A DNA stretch of 28,555 nucleotides, from positions 1 through 28,555 of IMG/VR virus record IMGVR_UViG_3300009507_000086. One strand, 5' to 3'. The translations under genes and the position numbers were made by a program. The notes beneath the pieces are model-generated. The model searched no databases and had not been told where the DNA came from. It was given only the letters and a program-made list of their open reading frames with translations. Below are positions 6,446 through 18,893 of the stretch, piece by piece; the first letter of the stretch is position 1; each line of letters starts with the position of its first letter. This DNA is from a virus.

Positions 6446-7045
6446 TCAACCGTTGCTCCAAATTTTCAGCTCATTAACAATAGCATCAAGAATTTCTTGC
6501 GATTTCTTGTCCTCATCAATTTGCTTGGACATATTTACCTTATCTGCAAAGTAGCCCTCAATGGAAAAGCCTTTGACCTTACCGGTCTTTACGTAACTCT
6601 CCCAAACCTCATCGTTGTAAACCTTCATACTAACCATCCACGTTCCTTCGGGAACATTTAAACCGTATGACTGGCTTTTATCTTTATCGCTTTCAACAAT
6701 CCAACTCTCAACAACACTCAAACCCTCTAACTCAAAGTTGTGCTCAAGAGTGCTTTTGTTTTGGTTGCCTTTCGTTAGGAAAAGCTCCGAGGCTTTTCTT
6801 ACCGTGTCCTTTGAGAAGTATATGTAATACTCCTCCTCACCGTTGGTACGGAAGATAGTCTTGTTAGGGATAAGTGCAGGTCCCATTAAGATTCGCTTCT
6901 CGCTATCTACCTCTGCAAGTTTTATCTCTTGCTCTTTGCTCAAGGTAATGAAATCCGATTCAATGGCCGGATGCTCAACAATGCTGATGGCTTGTACGCC
7001 ACTCAACATTTGTTCTTCGTCAAGTATTAGTTCTACTATTTTCAC
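6446..7045 (-). CDS. XkdF-like prohead protease
   Basis: This 199-aa protein resembles the XkdF family of phage serine proteases that cleave scaffold and head proteins during maturation. The N-terminus has the typical ISIVEHPAIESDFI strand. A GPALIPNKTIFR segment follows, then LEHNFELEGLSVVESWIVE with the candidate catalytic His at 102, and later KVKGFSIEGYF with the candidate Ser at 161. The start codon is GTG at 7045 and overlaps the tape measure stop as GTGA. It sits directly upstream of the scaffold gene, which fits a protease acting on it. Catalytic residues are assigned by pattern only. Confidence 0.82.
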   Translation of the reverse strand: MKIVELILDEEQMLSGVQAISIVEHPAIESDFITLSKEQEIKLAEVDSEKRILMGPALIPNKTIFRTNGEEEYYIYFSKDTVRKASELFLTKGNQNKSTLEHNFELEGLSVVESWIVESDKDKSQSYGLNVPEGTWMVSMKVYNDEVWESYVKTGKVKGFSIEGYFADKVNMSKQIDEDKKSQEILDAIVNELKIWSNG

Positions 7046-14031: not shown

Positions 14032-15195
14032 TTAACGAACTGCGTACCTTCCGTAGTTTGGTCTTGACATTCGGTTATATGTTGCATACCTCACCGCATC
14101 TATAGCGTGGTTGTATGAATCCACCGGTTTGTTCAATACCTTTCCGTTGTAGTCCTCTACGAATTTATAGTTTCTTAATTCCTTAATCAAGTTCACACTT
14201 GATTTAGTTGCATTAAGTTTATAACGCTTTAGCATATCAATACCGGCCATAACCGAATCCTTCCCTTTGGCCGTTGGCTTTATGTTCCAACCAAATAACT
14301 GAAGCTCTTTGATACTCTTTGGTTCAGCACTATCGGCAAATATCTCCGTGCGCTTGTCAAAGCCAAGCGACTGAAGTTTCTTGTGTATGTCCCTGTTGGT
14401 TAGTCCCGTTTCATATACAAGCTCCTCAAAGTACAAGTCTATGTCCTTGCGGTATGCTACAACAAGGGTGGTGGGGTCGTTGGTAAAACCAAAGTCCATA
14501 CCTGCTGCAATCAACGATGCGCCTTCCGGAATAGCCTCAACCGTTTGGTGGGTAAAGATTACTGCTTTGCTTTGTCCCCTCTCACCAAGGCCGTACACCT
14601 GCCAATAGTTCTCGTCAGTTTCTTTCAGTCTTTCAATCTCCGATACGATAGCATCGGAAAGGAAAGGATTGTCAACGTAGGTAGTCTTGTAGAACTCGGC
14701 ATCATCTCTTGGTATTACCCTGTCGTATATCCAATGGTACTCGTCCGAAGGGTTGTAGTCTAATATGATTTTACCGGAGGTACGCATTATAAGCTGCTGC
14801 CAGTCCTCAAAGTGAAGCTCGTTGGCCTCGTTGATATATAACATATCACGCTTACGACCACGCACCTTTTGCGGTTGGTCAAGCGATATGAACTCAACCA
14901 TATTACCGGAGAGGTAATACTCGTTTCTACTTTTGTTGTGTTGGTCCGGCTTGTATTGACCGGCCCGTTCAAGTATCTCAAAGAAGTCACGCATCACGGA
15001 AGCACGAACCGATGGAAAGGTCTTACGACAAATAGTAATTGTTTGTCCGCTAACGTCAGGGTTTAGACAGTAGTATATTATCCATATAAGAATGTTATAT
15101 GTTTTACCGGAACGAGTACCGCCTTGTTCAATAACAATCCTACTTGTACTGTTTTGTAGGTGCCTGAATACAACGTTAGTCTGAAGTGTTGCCAT
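14032..15195 (-). CDS. terL: Terminase large subunit
   Basis: This 387-aa packaging motor and nuclease pumps DNA into the prohead and cuts it. Walker A is GGTRSGKT at 25-32. Walker B is at DMLYINEAN (117-125), with the Glu at 123 as catalytic carboxylate. The C-terminal RNase H-like nuclease shows candidate acidic residues in GMDFGF (D234), FADSAEP (D288) and HAIDAVRY (D366). It overlaps the small subunit by 20 bases and is followed by the tail chaperone gene. At 387 aa it is compact, within the range of Terminase_3-type enzymes. Overall confidence in the function is high. Confidence 0.95.
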   Translation of the reverse strand: MATLQTNVVFRHLQNSTSRIVIEQGGTRSGKTYNILIWIIYYCLNPDVSGQTITICRKTFPSVRASVMRDFFEILERAGQYKPDQHNKSRNEYYLSGNMVEFISLDQPQKVRGRKRDMLYINEANELHFEDWQQLIMRTSGKIILDYNPSDEYHWIYDRVIPRDDAEFYKTTYVDNPFLSDAIVSEIERLKETDENYWQVYGLGERGQSKAVIFTHQTVEAIPEGASLIAAGMDFGFTNDPTTLVVAYRKDIDLYFEELVYETGLTNRDIHKKLQSLGFDKRTEIFADSAEPKSIKELQLFGWNIKPTAKGKDSVMAGIDMLKRYKLNATKSSVNLIKELRNYKFVEDYNGKVLNKPVDSYNHAIDAVRYATYNRMSRPNYGRYAVR

Positions 15196-15523
15196 CTACA
15201 ATCTCTATGCGAAGGCCGTCCGGACTGTCGTGTTGTATCTCTTGACGCTCCACATATCCTCGTGCCTTGCCTTTGGTCTTTAGATAAAAGATAGTGGCCG
15301 TTGGGTTGCCCTTGCTTATTTGTTTGTGTAGTTGACTTTCTGCAAAGTCTATGGCTACGTTCTCAAGCTCCCGTACCGATGCGTTGTACTCCGCATCTTC
15401 TTTCATCCAACGGTAATGTGTTTCACGTGAAATACCTACGCTCTTACAAGCGGAGGTAACAACACCAAGCGACTTTTCAAGTGCTTGGAGCATTGCGTTT
15501 TTACTTATGTCAGATTTTGCCAT
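15176..15523 (-). CDS. terS: Terminase small subunit
   Basis: This 115-aa protein recognises the packaging site and loads the large subunit. The N-terminal helix-turn-helix reads GVVTSACKSVGISRETHYRW, typical of terS DNA-binding domains. Next come an ELENVAIDFAESQLHKQISK oligomerisation helix and a short segment ending in YVERQEIQHDSPDG. It overlaps the large terminase gene by 20 bases. The start lies one base downstream of the stop of the dioxygenase gene, so packaging genes and the modification cassette appear to share one transcript. Confidence 0.88.
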   Translation of the reverse strand: MAKSDISKNAMLQALEKSLGVVTSACKSVGISRETHYRWMKEDAEYNASVRELENVAIDFAESQLHKQISKGNPTATIFYLKTKGKARGYVERQEIQHDSPDGLRIEIVDGNTSD

Positions 15524-15524
15524 A

Positions 15525-16424
15525 TTACTTTTTGTTTTTTATATCGCTTGTTTGCTTTTCTTTTTGCGATTGTCTGCGTAGTTCGTCTGCTCTTTCTTGG
15601 AGCTTTGCTTTGTGTTCAGGGTCTATTCTTGTTTTCTCTTTTACCTGTTGTGATTCTCGTATTCTAACTATTTCATCGTCAATAGGCTCACACTTCCACA
15701 TTTGTTCTAACGAGTAGTACACAACAGAGTACCGGTATGACTGTTCGTTTTGAGTTTCTATTGGTGTTACACCGTGTAGTATTTCTTGTCCGTTGAATAT
15801 GGTTAGTGTGTTGTCTGCTATTTCAAGTGCTATGTCTAATTCGGGAATGGCCAAGTGGCCTCCCTCAACATCGCCTTTGAATGCAACCATATTACTCATA
15901 ACGCCTTTAAAGTTTCCTGCATCAAAGTGGTATTTAAGTTCGTTGTTCTTGTTTATGATACCGCTTGTAAACACACTGTTCTTTATCTTCCATTCGGGTA
16001 GTACCCTTTCATCTACGATTTGTTCGTGTTGTTCGTGTGTTGCTGGAAAGTGCTTTTTGTAAATATCAGAAACATACTCTGCAAATTTAGAGACAACAAA
16101 GTGTTGCTTTGGAAAATCCAAAGCCATACTTGAAGCGTGGCAGAAATTGTGCCTCATTGCAACCCTTGGAGCATATCCAAATATCCTACTCACGGACTTT
16201 AAACCTCTTGCCCGAACCCCCGTTGCATACTTTGTGTTTTTAACGGCCCAACGAAGGTTCTTTGTCATTTCCTTGTCAAGTTTGATATATAAAACACTTG
16301 GTACACCGTTTTTTGTAATCAGGCAGTCCTCTTTTATGATTCGGGATACATCCGAAACATAAGCCGTGCGCTTTTTATACTTGGCTACATCAATTTCTAT
16401 TGGCGTTATCTCTATTGTTTTCAT
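15525..16424 (-). CDS. TET/JBP-type 2-oxoglutarate/Fe(II) DNA base dioxygenase
   Basis: This 299-aa protein is a likely base hydroxylase of the TET/JBP superfamily, which oxidises the methyl group of 5-methylcytosine or thymine in DNA. The double-stranded beta-helix core is at about 150-240. It has KYHFDAGN (H166, D168 as iron ligands), then GDVEGGHLAIPE, then FNGQEILHGVTP (H217 as third ligand) and SYRYSVVYYSL (R231 as 2-oxoglutarate anchor). The N-terminal half includes GVRARGLKSVSRIFGYAPRV, as in phage members of the family. The C-terminal 50 residues are charged and probably helical. It overlaps the glycosyltransferase start by one base in TAATG and stands directly upstream of terS. Substrate (5mC or T) cannot be told from sequence. 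Confidence 0.85.
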   Translation of the reverse strand: MKTIEITPIEIDVAKYKKRTAYVSDVSRIIKEDCLITKNGVPSVLYIKLDKEMTKNLRWAVKNTKYATGVRARGLKSVSRIFGYAPRVAMRHNFCHASSMALDFPKQHFVVSKFAEYVSDIYKKHFPATHEQHEQIVDERVLPEWKIKNSVFTSGIINKNNELKYHFDAGNFKGVMSNMVAFKGDVEGGHLAIPELDIALEIADNTLTIFNGQEILHGVTPIETQNEQSYRYSVVYYSLEQMWKCEPIDDEIVRIRESQQVKEKTRIDPEHKAKLQERADELRRQSQKEKQTSDIKNKK

Positions 16425-17224
16425 TACGGTTGCAGGAAGTTTGTTTTATATACTTTGGTTCTTGCTCTTATTTGCAGGTCGTAGTATCCTTTGTAAATCC
16501 TCATATTTGTTAGCAACTTGTATTTGTTGTGCAAATACTCCGTTGCTTGTTTCTCTCCTTCGTTGTTTCGGCTTTCTTGGTGGCCTCCTTCTTCTCCCCA
16601 ATAATTACTCAAAACACCAAACGCACGGTATTTTAAAACACCACCGTACTTATCATACATTTTAAGCGCACGTTCGTGGCTTTCTTTTCCTGCGGAAAAG
16701 TTAGCACGTGCCTTAATCTCCTCTCCCTCGTCTACAAATACCTCGCTGGTATTTATAAGCCCGTAGAAGTTTCCAACGATATAGATGAGCCCTACGGATA
16801 CTGTTTGCTTCATCTCAAGGTTGCTGATTGTTGAGTTTATACCCCACATCTTGAACTTCAAACCCTCGGCTTGTTGAAAAGCCTTTTGTACAAATTCGTG
16901 TATTGCGGTACACTTTACAATCTTTCCTTGCTTGTTCATACCCTTCAGACTTTTTATGTCGTCATCAATAAAAACAAGATACTCACCCTCATCAAAGTAA
17001 CGCTGAATAAAGTTTCGTTGGTTTGGAATACCACGAACACCTTTTACAACGGTAATATCCTCATAGTCCTTGAGCTTTTCATTGTAGATTTTCTCCTCAT
17101 CTTCGTTTGCAACAAAGACATAAATATCTTTTGCAATGTCTGTTTCGTACAGACACTTCAAAGTTTTCTTAATTATTGTATCCGGTCTTTTGTATGACGG
17201 GATAATTATCTTATAGCTTTTCAT
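16424..17224 (-). CDS. GT-A glycosyltransferase (probable DNA base glycosyltransferase)
   Basis: This 266-aa protein shows a GT-A fold: an N-terminal IIIPSYKRPDTI nucleotide-sugar strand, then VFVANEDEEKI, then GIPNQRNFIQRYFDEGEYLV and an FIDDD metal-binding motif with D87-D88-D89. After that come a segment with KFKMWGINSTISNLEMKQ and a C-terminal region with NYWGEEGGHQESRN. Coupling to a TET/JBP enzyme suggests that it adds a sugar to the hydroxymethyl base (TET-associated glycosyltransferase). It overlaps the ParB-like gene by 14 bases and the dioxygenase by one. A virion or host glycan role is possible but less likely given the order. Confidence 0.78.
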   Translation of the reverse strand: MKSYKIIIPSYKRPDTIIKKTLKCLYETDIAKDIYVFVANEDEEKIYNEKLKDYEDITVVKGVRGIPNQRNFIQRYFDEGEYLVFIDDDIKSLKGMNKQGKIVKCTAIHEFVQKAFQQAEGLKFKMWGINSTISNLEMKQTVSVGLIYIVGNFYGLINTSEVFVDEGEEIKARANFSAGKESHERALKMYDKYGGVLKYRAFGVLSNYWGEEGGHQESRNNEGEKQATEYLHNKYKLLTNMRIYKGYYDLQIRARTKVYKTNFLQP

Positions 17225-17789
17225 TGACCAATAGTTTTACGAGCTCCGCATTGTTTTCTACATCTAACTTGTTTCTCAACTGCTCAAAGTTGTCAATCAG
17301 CTTTTCGTAATCTTCTTGTGGGTAATACAATACAACTTGTTTTATCGCACCGTTTATGTATGAGTCAAGGTTCATTGCAAGTTCGTCCTCGTCAAACTCC
17401 GGCTCGTTGTCCTCCTCAAAATAAACCTTTGGTAAGTCAAGCCCCCAAGCATCTAACTCATCAATGTTCCATTCGTTTGCAAGTAGGTCCCAATCCCACT
17501 CGCCAAATGATGAGTTGTCTTTAATAACAAACTCTTTCTTTTGCTCGTCCGTGAAGTCCGAGGCTTTTATAATATATACTTCTTTGAGTCCTGCTTCCAA
17601 ACAAGCACGTAAACGCATATTGCCTCCAAGAACTGTCATTGTTTCATCAACAACAATTGGGCGTAGCTTTAGCATATCCGGAAAGTCCTTAATGCTTTTG
17701 ACAAGTTTCTTGAACTTGTCATTTTTAATTACCCTTGGGTTGTTAGCCGAAAGTCTTACTTTTTCAATTTTTACCTTTTCCGTTTTCAT
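17211..17789 (-). CDS. ParB/sulfiredoxin-fold protein in the modification cassette
   Basis: This 192-aa protein carries a ParB-type N-terminal domain at about 5-95. It has VRLSANNPRVI, then KLVKSIKDFPDML, RPIVVDETMTVLGGNMRLRA (GGNMRL at 55-60 is the ParB-like nucleotide-binding/nuclease motif) and EFVIKDNSSFGEWDWDLLAN. The C-terminal half is acidic and lacks the classic ParB HTH. Stand-alone ParB-fold domains are common in phage modification clusters, where an ATP-dependent nuclease or sensor role has been proposed. The start overlaps the RecE-like stop by four bases. Specific activity is unknown; a chromosome partition role is unlikely with no ParA in the window. Confidence 0.75.
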   Translation of the reverse strand: MKTEKVKIEKVRLSANNPRVIKNDKFKKLVKSIKDFPDMLKLRPIVVDETMTVLGGNMRLRACLEAGLKEVYIIKASDFTDEQKKEFVIKDNSSFGEWDWDLLANEWNIDELDAWGLDLPKVYFEEDNEPEFDEDELAMNLDSYINGAIKQVVLYYPQEDYEKLIDNFEQLRNKLDVENNAELVKLLVNEKL

Positions 17790-18580
17790 AATGTTTCTTC
17801 AATATAATATCCATCTAAATCAACTCCTTCTTGGAAGAACTTCTTGTAAAGTTCTATACCTTTTCTTGTTCTTTCTTTACCGCTATTGTAGAAATCCTCG
17901 CTAACGTGGTAAACTCCAATATCAAGGCTTCCTTTGTCGATAGCGACAAAGTGGAAGTTCTCCGGAGGTATTCCAAAAAGGTTGCAGTAAATATACACTT
18001 GAATATCGTAACCATATTTATAAGCTGAATACTTGAAAGCGTGAAGGTCGCTTGTTGTTTTCAGGTCAATGATATGGTCGCCTTGCAGTATATCTGCTTT
18101 GGCTCGGAACGGCATTCCATCAAGCATATCCACACGAGGTATCTCAAACTGCGCATCTTTCAAGTAACCAAGCACTTTTTCGTTGCGGAGCATATGGTCT
18201 TGCAGCCTACGAACCTCTCCTTCTTCTTTTGAGGTTATAACATCACGGCCCTCGTTGGCCTCAACTGCTTCTTTGAATTTCTTTGTTGCTCTTGACTGAA
18301 CATCTACAACCATAACGTCATCCATCTTGTGCGGTTCAAGAACCGACAAGTGAAATAGCTTACCAATCAACAAGGCTTTTGAATTGTTGTTGCCTCCATA
18401 CTTGGTAACGTAGTGGTAGGTCTTGGGAGATTGCAGTAGCATCTTGATAGAACTTGAGGACAAGGCTGCTTGTCCCAAGTATCCGTAGTAATGCTCGTCC
18501 TCCTTTGCAAGTTGCTCAAGATGGCCTACCTCGTGGTAGATACCATCAAGCATTAGTATTTCTTTGTTACTGTAAAACAT
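17786..18580 (-). CDS. RecE-like PD-(D/E)XK exonuclease
   Basis: The protein is 264 aa from the ATG at 18580; a TTG at 18595 and an ATG at 18553 are alternatives. It has a QAALSSSSIKMLLQSPKTYH start segment and GKLFHLSVLEP, which are characteristic of the RecE C-terminal / exonuclease VIII-type family. The nuclease core follows with FRAKADILQGDHIIDLKTTS (D163, D172 and K174 as catalytic residues) and YGYDIQVYIYCNLF. Such enzymes resect DNA ends for recombination or repair. It starts the run of genes that contains ParB, glycosyltransferase and dioxygenase, with a four-base overlap downstream. Confidence 0.82.
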   Translation of the reverse strand: MFYSNKEILMLDGIYHEVGHLEQLAKEDEHYYGYLGQAALSSSSIKMLLQSPKTYHYVTKYGGNNNSKALLIGKLFHLSVLEPHKMDDVMVVDVQSRATKKFKEAVEANEGRDVITSKEEGEVRRLQDHMLRNEKVLGYLKDAQFEIPRVDMLDGMPFRAKADILQGDHIIDLKTTSDLHAFKYSAYKYGYDIQVYIYCNLFGIPPENFHFVAIDKGSLDIGVYHVSEDFYNSGKERTRKGIELYKKFFQEGVDLDGYYIEETL

Positions 18581-18893
18581 CTCCGTACTCCTCAATGTTA
18601 AACCATTCCAAGAAAAGAGTTTTTAACGCAACCTGCTCCATCGGAGAAGTAATCTCAACCTCATCGCAAGTAAACCATTCTTTAAAAACAAAGAAGAAAC
18701 GAGCGTTTTTACCTCTGCCTCGCATTACGATAGATTCAGAAGGCCCTCCCCAAGAAAGAAGCCAAGTCCATTCATCATCATCGGGATTGTAAGTCAAGGA
18801 TAAGCCGTAATTGTCAAGGCCATCGTGGTCTTGGGATATCATCATCATCTCGACATCCTCCATTCTGCTGATTAAGTGTTCTCTTGTTGTCAT
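18567..18893 (-). CDS. Hypothetical early-region protein, 108 aa
   Basis: I do not recognise this protein. It starts MTTREHLISRMEDVEMMMIS and contains several Trp residues in DDDEWTWLLSWGGPS and EWFTCDEVEITSPMEQVALK, with an acidic composition. There is no signal peptide or membrane segment. The frame is open to 18935, but the ATG at 18893 is preceded by AACCAACT-ATT, the same leader element found before several other genes in this region. That makes it the better start. It overlaps the exonuclease start by 14 bases. Confidence 0.65.
   Translation of the reverse strand: MTTREHLISRMEDVEMMMISQDHDGLDNYGLSLTYNPDDDEWTWLLSWGGPSESIVMRGRGKNARFFFVFKEWFTCDEVEITSPMEQVALKTLFLEWFNIEEYGDVLQ

Follow-up and report, generated by a model that had tools for sequence, protein, structure and literature searches.

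A TET dioxygenase, glycosyltransferase and ParB cassette in an exchange slot beside phage terminase genes: a candidate thymine-glycosylation module

Which DNA base is modified by a phage that encodes a TET/JBP-type dioxygenase, a glycosyltransferase (GT) and a ParB-domain protein, and no methyltransferase alongside them? The question is raised by IMGVR_UViG_3300009507_000086, a linear virus contig of 28,555 bases that may be a fragment (the whole contig is here called the window). Nearly all of its genes lie on the minus strand, including the following:

14032..15195, minus strand: TerL, terminase large subunit (PF04466, 3e-21; PF17288, 2e-18)
15176..15523, minus strand: TerS, terminase small subunit (phrog_309, 4e-12), found directly past the slot described below in relatives and forming its constant downstream border
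15525..16424, minus strand: TET/JBP-type Fe(II)/2-oxoglutarate dioxygenase, 299 aa (Pfam Tet_JBP, AlphaFold2 model, invariant residues)
16424..17224, minus strand: TAGT, TET-associated GT-A glycosyltransferase, 266 aa (Pfam TAGT, GT-A model, alignments)
17211..17789, minus strand: ParB-domain protein, 192 aa (ParB_N; phrog_620, 5e-26)
17786..18595, minus strand: DUF3799 PDDEXK nuclease (PF12684, E = 1e-19), found in the same place in relatives and forming the constant upstream border of the slot

The three cassette ORFs are present as an earlier note on this DNA had described them, with overlaps of 14 nt between ParB and TAGT and 1 nt between TAGT and TET; PDDEXK and ParB overlap by 4 nt, and TerS and TerL by 20 nt. 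The cassette is not joined by overlap to the terminase genes, as that note had supposed, because 1 base parts TET from TerS. The nearest TerL relatives belong to Flavobacterium phages (~40% identity), and a Bacteroidota host is likely, judged solely from TerL kinship with Flavobacterium and Bacteroides phages. One scan of genome contigs found no host chromosome carrying this TET.

The dioxygenase matches Pfam Tet_JBP (PF12851) with E = 1.2e-16 and 60.9 bits against a cut-off of 34.9. The residues proposed earlier from the sequence, H166, D168, H217 and R231, form the iron triad (HxD...H) and the 2-oxoglutarate-binding arginine, and are unchanged in an alignment of 19 relatives. An AlphaFold2 model (pLDDT 85.9) folds as a double-stranded beta-helix of the TET type. 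CcTet, NgTet1, human TET2 and CMD1 account for all of its 26 best PDB matches, which argues against the kinship with non-DNA oxygenases that the earlier note had named as a possible refutation. The designation 'queuine tRNA-ribosyltransferase', given to this TET family by PHROG and GenBank, is ruled out by profile and fold. The same label is carried by phrog_6059 and by many actinophage gp2 records (for example, NC_023701.1 gene 2), which are TET/JBP by profile and alignment.

The GT matches Pfam TAGT (PF20691) with E = 7.9e-12 and 46.0 bits (cut-off 27.5), its model (pLDDT 86.1) has a GT-A fold, and its DDD at residues 87–89 aligns with the DDD of related GTs, in agreement with the earlier assignment. 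Kinship with cell-surface enzymes, the other refutation suggested, receives a divided answer: the sequence places the protein with TET-associated GTs, whereas the nearest solved structures are general GT-A/GT2-type enzymes. At the usual position of the catalytic base, the window GT reads KES-H; the remaining TAGTs in the alignments carry an Asp there, usually within ED or DD, and the acidic ED motif typical of inverting GT-A enzymes is absent from the window GT, L001 and L336. KES-H also occurs in these two loci, in a 98% identical GT in L001 (1296-2093) and a 68% identical GT in L336 (2078-2881), the latter within a ParB-GT-TET-TerS-TerL array whose TET and terminase are distant from those of the window. 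The window gene (16424-17224) thus belongs with L001 and L336 to a KES-H TAGT subfamily kept at 68% identity between distant phages. In four other loci (L050, L037, L055 and L189), an extra protein of 221–242 aa, GT32-like by resemblance, lies between PDDEXK and ParB and could extend a sugar chain. In L071 (7832-10001), NTP-transferase-like and HAD/kinase-like genes adjoin the GT, a pairing that suggests a special sugar or nucleotide donor made by that phage.

The third protein was earlier described as ParB-fold, an assignment that stands: the match to ParB_N (PF02195) is marginal (E = 4.1e-6, 27.2 bits against a cut-off of 26.3), and the PHROG ParB matches are stronger (1e-25 to 1e-27). The GERRxR CTP-binding motif is absent from the window ParB, which reads GGNMRLRA, and there is no ParA among the Pfam and PHROG family matches of the window.

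In line with the earlier note, which saw neither a C5-methyltransferase nor a hydroxymethyl-pyrimidine synthesis gene, profile searches of the window gave no C5-methyltransferase (PF00145) and no thymidylate synthase/hydroxymethylase (PF00303). We extended the search to 89 virus records of the same TET clade, comprising 80 loci with a TET of at least 54% identity and 9 added by a profile scan. PF00145 scored above its cut-off in 0 of the 89. One close relative, L052, has a sub-threshold match corresponding to a short C5-methylase-like ORF, and a dedicated profile of this type of C5-methylase gave no other case among the TET records searched with it, so that the count stands at 1 of 89. The eight complete actinophage genomes with this type of TET (Stinger, Kharcho, Lilmac1015, Tonitrus, Acadian, Terij, LittleMunchkin and KayaCho) have none. 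PF00303 was likewise without a match above cut-off in 39 related records. The PF00145 search is able to detect such enzymes, since it gave positives in 5 of 50 records from the other phage TET clade. Many of the virus records are short fragments, and the absence is therefore firmest for the complete phages and for contigs of 20–38 kb. With a C5-methyltransferase in 1 of 89 virus records and in none of the 8 complete actinophage genomes, its absence is, as read from these sequences, a property of the clade and not of a fragment. The ORF at 6446-7045 of the window, which PHROG labels a DNA methyltransferase (phrog_1530), was rejected as a candidate, its other matches being head maturation proteases; the label is probably wrong and could misdirect searches for methylases. 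Elsewhere, L213 has a 422-aa C5-methylase-like ORF (240-1505), and the ParB slot of that phage is empty.

A consistent order, ParB - X - TET - TerS - TerL, where X is a gene or a short gene group, is kept strictly in almost every locus of the clade. The families found as X are many and dissimilar. They comprise TAGTs of several groups, further GT-like groups, a single possible GT-B, a P-loop kinase, and ADDT (amino acid:DNA transferase) in a set with an FAD oxidoreductase and a kinase. ADDT (PF18724) occurs with a P-loop kinase in L058, L063 and L064, a kinase in L069 and L070, and ADDT/kinase-like genes in L176. Actinophages have the order ParB - TET - X - terminase, X being a PF18751 P-loop kinase (as in Stinger), ADDT and a kinase (as in Tonitrus) or a GT. 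The functions given here for ADDT and the kinases come from family assignment, which is weak for some kinases of Bacteroidota-type phages (generic AAA matches). Neither a 5hmU (5-hydroxymethyluracil) DNA kinase nor an ADDT was found by Pfam and PHROG among the scanned ORFs of the window. In the TET tree, obtained by a quick method and containing long branches, TETs with kinase or ADDT partners are nested among GT-bearing TETs, and supported branches force at least four partner changes, across which the TET active site is constant.

ADDT and the kinase are assigned to thymidine hypermodification. The repeated exchange of the GT partner for enzymes of this kind is our main argument that the TET acts on thymine: one TET with a constant active site that feeds both GT and kinase/ADDT partners would most simply make 5hmU. 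Together with the lack of a methyltransferase and of a hydroxymethylase in the clade, the ADDT/5hmU-kinase-type partners favour a route from thymine to 5hmU to glycosylated 5hmU. From this context, we consider thymine the probable substrate; the earlier note had left the base open, and the comparative evidence now leans to thymine, short of proof.

The residues at the base-reading edge of the TET do not discriminate between thymine and 5-methylcytosine (5mC). The relevant positions are N171 (D+3) and L239 (R+8) in the window. All 104 clade members have Asn at D+3, where 85 of 86 members of the other phage TET clade have Asp; at R+8, Leu is found in 102 of 103 members of the window's clade and Arg in all 85 of the other. 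The solved TETs (TET2 and NgTet1) have His at R+8; at D+3, the 5mC-oxidising TET2 has Asn, and NgTet1 has D. Compared with the solved enzymes, the base-reading edge is thus altered in both phage clades, each having lost the R+8 His. We dropped these residues as a discriminator because D+3 is Asn in both TET2 and the clade, and because the His is lost in both phage clades.

What else can occupy the place of the cassette? Loci were picked by TerL and by the PDDEXK nuclease, ignoring TET, and were read from the nuclease to TerS, giving 57 slots. ParB and TAGT without TET fill 18 of these, a ParB-N4/N6-methylase fusion 10 (with a separate methylase in 1 more), ParB with GT and TET 8, and ParB with Mom (PF25680) 7. 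Six are empty or hold non-modification genes, and 4 hold preQ0 genes, read from sequence as QueC/QueD/QueE/FolE. The remainder are single cases: ParB with TET, ADDT and kinase; ParB alone; and ParB with an unassigned 261-aa protein. Even among phages with a TerL 77–94% identical to that of the window, the slot holds TET and GT, TAGT alone (L191, L192), ParB-methylase fusions (L195-L198, L205-L208, L210) or nothing (L213); Mom or preQ0 genes are found in more distant phages. Comparison thereby shows that the stretch bounded by the PDDEXK gene and TerS-TerL is an exchange slot in which whole modification chemistries are swapped. The replacement of the cassette by such enzymes in relatives supports, along with the profiles and the fold, the earlier proposal of a DNA-hypermodification cassette, and we regard this role as very probable.

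All 46 slots that hold a ParB-associated modification enzyme also have ParB, against 1 of the 11 remaining slots (Fisher p = 2.5e-10, in a test that ignores kinship, uses hand-typed categories and counts preQ0 slots as 'other'). We rejected the idea that ParB belongs to packaging and not to modification, given its presence in all 46 modification slots and its absence from 10 of the 11 empty or preQ0 slots. Three further observations concern occupants of the slot. In ten loci (L191, L192, L212, L218, L221, L224, L236, L248, L249 and L260), one or two TAGTs and ParB precede TerS, and the record contains neither a TET nor a hydroxymethylase; a search for a TET in records with such GT-only slots was negative in all 33 (control, 7 of 7). 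The preQ0 (7-deazaguanine) synthesis genes of L230, L250, L252 and L253 precede TerS without ParB. In L306 (11968-13026), a 353-aa protein encoded between ParB and TerS resembles a fusion of a P-loop ATPase with a GNAT-like acetyltransferase, possibly a further modification chemistry.

The boundaries of the exchange run through genes. DNA identity to close relatives is 78–90% outside the exchanged segment, and no match is detectable by blastn inside it:

15972..17351, no strand: exchanged segment (blastn against L029, L187, L010, L013, L015 and L012)

The left edge falls within the TET gene at 15971-16191. The right edge falls within ParB, at 17352 or 17353 in 5 of the 6 relatives with a clean break and at 17365 in L012. 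ParB divides into an N-domain (~17355-17789) and a C-terminal tail (~17211-17354). When the window is compared with relatives whose TerL N-terminal halves are 83–89% identical, the ParB N-domain has 71–84% identity and the tail 21–32%; measured over residues 1–115, the identity is 70–83%, against 26–34% for the tail. Partial Mantel tests over 56 loci correlate the ParB tail with TET (0.595; maximum of 300 permutations, 0.316) and the N-domain with TerL (0.46; permutation maximum, 0.178), and the crossed terms are −0.18 and −0.08. By sequence comparison, ParB is a mosaic, its N-domain inherited with the terminase and backbone and its tail with GT and TET. This split inheritance makes ParB appear to be a fixed adaptor between the backbone and the modifying enzymes; the most economical reading is that the tail docks the enzymes, by a physical contact that we infer, and that the N-domain remains with the phage. 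The TET of the window clusters with that of L002, a phage whose TerL has just 36% identity, instead of with those of the phages closest to it in terminase, indicating that the module moved between phage lineages.

We propose the following mechanism. ParB would bind phage DNA and recruit the enzymes through its variable C-terminal tail. With O2, Fe(II) and 2-oxoglutarate, the TET would hydroxylate the 5-methyl group of thymine in DNA, yielding 5hmU. TAGT would then add a sugar to the new hydroxyl, giving a base-J-like glycosylated 5hmU; the donor may be a nucleotide sugar of the host, as no sugar-nucleotide gene was recognised in the window. The modified base could shield DNA bound for packaging from nucleases. 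The module would act after replication, as one occupant of the PDDEXK/TerS-TerL exchange slot. We judge this explanation as a whole, a post-replicative thymine-glycosylation module in an exchange slot, to be reasonably likely. A broader reading, which we hold tentatively, is that base J has a counterpart in phages: a TET clade devoid of methyltransferases may oxidise T, a GT or kinase/ADDT may finish the base, a mosaic ParB whose tail is matched to the enzymes may target them, and the whole may plug into a slot beside the terminase where Mom, preQ0 genes and ParB-methylase fusions are accommodated as well.

The substrate might instead be 5mC, made either by the host or by a methyltransferase encoded in phage sequence that the contig does not cover, with glycosylated 5hmC as the product, as in characterised phage TET systems. 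The phage TETs that have been tested are 5mC dioxygenases (Burke et al. 2021, as cited in PMC12730594), the close relative L052 has its short C5-methylase-like ORF, D+3 is Asn as in TET2, and the window may be incomplete. However, 88 of the 89 related records and the 8 complete actinophage genomes are devoid of a C5-methylase, ADDT/5hmU-kinase partners occur within the clade, and the R+8 His of TET2 and NgTet1 is Leu in nearly all clade members, which makes this reading rather unlikely. Oxidation of another methylated base, for example N6-methyladenine (6mA) or N4-methylcytosine made by phage or host methylases, seems extremely improbable: the clade's partner enzymes belong to thymidine pathways, the window cassette has no visible N4/N6 methylase, and N-hydroxymethyl products are, as a matter of general chemistry, unstable and poor glycosyl acceptors. 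This is so even with CcTet, crystallised with 6mA DNA, among the top structural matches and with N4/N6 methylases in the same slot of related phages.

It is also conceivable, and in our view very unlikely, that the cassette is degenerate or not directed at DNA, the GT being inactive through replacement of its catalytic Asp or modifying a protein or surface sugar. KES-H does replace ED in the window GT, and the closest GT folds among solved structures are those of cell-surface and secondary-metabolite enzymes, but KES is kept in the 68% identical GT that L336, a different phage, encodes next to a TET of its own; moreover, the reading frames are all open and overlap, the TET active-site residues are invariant and the profile identifies the GT as a TAGT.

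Iyer and co-workers reportedly predicted phage TET/JBP genes with GT and ParB neighbours, and the TET family and its thymine prediction are already published. The suggestion of a 'minimal or new variant' in the earlier note survives in part: ParB-TET-partner-terminase arrays are common, and that of Tonitrus is published; that the cassette is one of several interchangeable occupants of a slot was beyond what the note could see. As far as the literature consulted shows, novelty lies in the clade-wide absence of methyltransferase combined with partner switching, in the exchange slot with several chemistries and in the split inheritance of ParB. At stake is whether a bacteriophage TET acts on thymine, which would provide a phage counterpart of the base J pathway; the clade supplies compact systems of two enzymes, as well as completely sequenced actinophages of laboratory hosts, on which this could be tested directly. 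DNA chemistries are exchanged as units among phages whose virion genes are almost the same, making the slot a natural series for studying base modification against host nucleases, and the split inheritance of ParB offers a specific hint at its role in such arrays.

Several known systems can be compared with the cassette. Burke et al. 2021 (PNAS) are said to have described clusters of phage TET, C5-methyltransferase and GT, the active TETs acting on 5mC. Those clusters share with the predicted route of the window a TET step followed by glycosylation of the hydroxymethyl group, but have a C5-methyltransferase that the window cassette lacks. PMC12730594 cites the same study for phage TETs active on 5mC. 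The Rhodococcus phage Tonitrus carries a published, predicted thymidine-hypermodification system (PMC11955845). Like the window, it has ParB and TET upstream of the terminase and no C5-methyltransferase, and its TET is the best match by bits to the window TET in the phage collection (38.8% identity). Unlike the window, its partners are ADDT (annotated aGPT-Pplase2) and a kinase, with no GT, and its order is ParB-TET-partner where that of the window is ParB-partner-TET. ParB-TET-GT sets of the same TET clade, near the terminase or in one small array, are found in Mycobacterium phage Acadian (genes 1-3) and Arthrobacter phage Lilmac1015 (genes 65-68), where the TET is annotated as queuine tRNA-ribosyltransferase or oxidoreductase; they differ from the window in the order of GT and TET and have only ~24–27% GT and ~32–33% TET identity to it. 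Nonlabens phage P12024L, a Bacteroidota phage, resembles the window in having TET and TAGT and no C5-methyltransferase, but its TET is of the other clade (HxDxxD, Arg at R+8), an N4/N6 methylase is adjacent and the genes lie far from the terminase. In the kinetoplastid base J pathway, T in DNA is oxidised by JBP1/2 and then glycosylated by the J glucosyltransferase. The proposed logic of oxidation followed by glycosylation is the same in the window, whereas the window TET, unlike JBP1, is a single 299-aa dioxygenase in which Pfam finds only Tet_JBP and no J-binding domain, and the system is of phage origin with an unrelated targeting protein, ParB.
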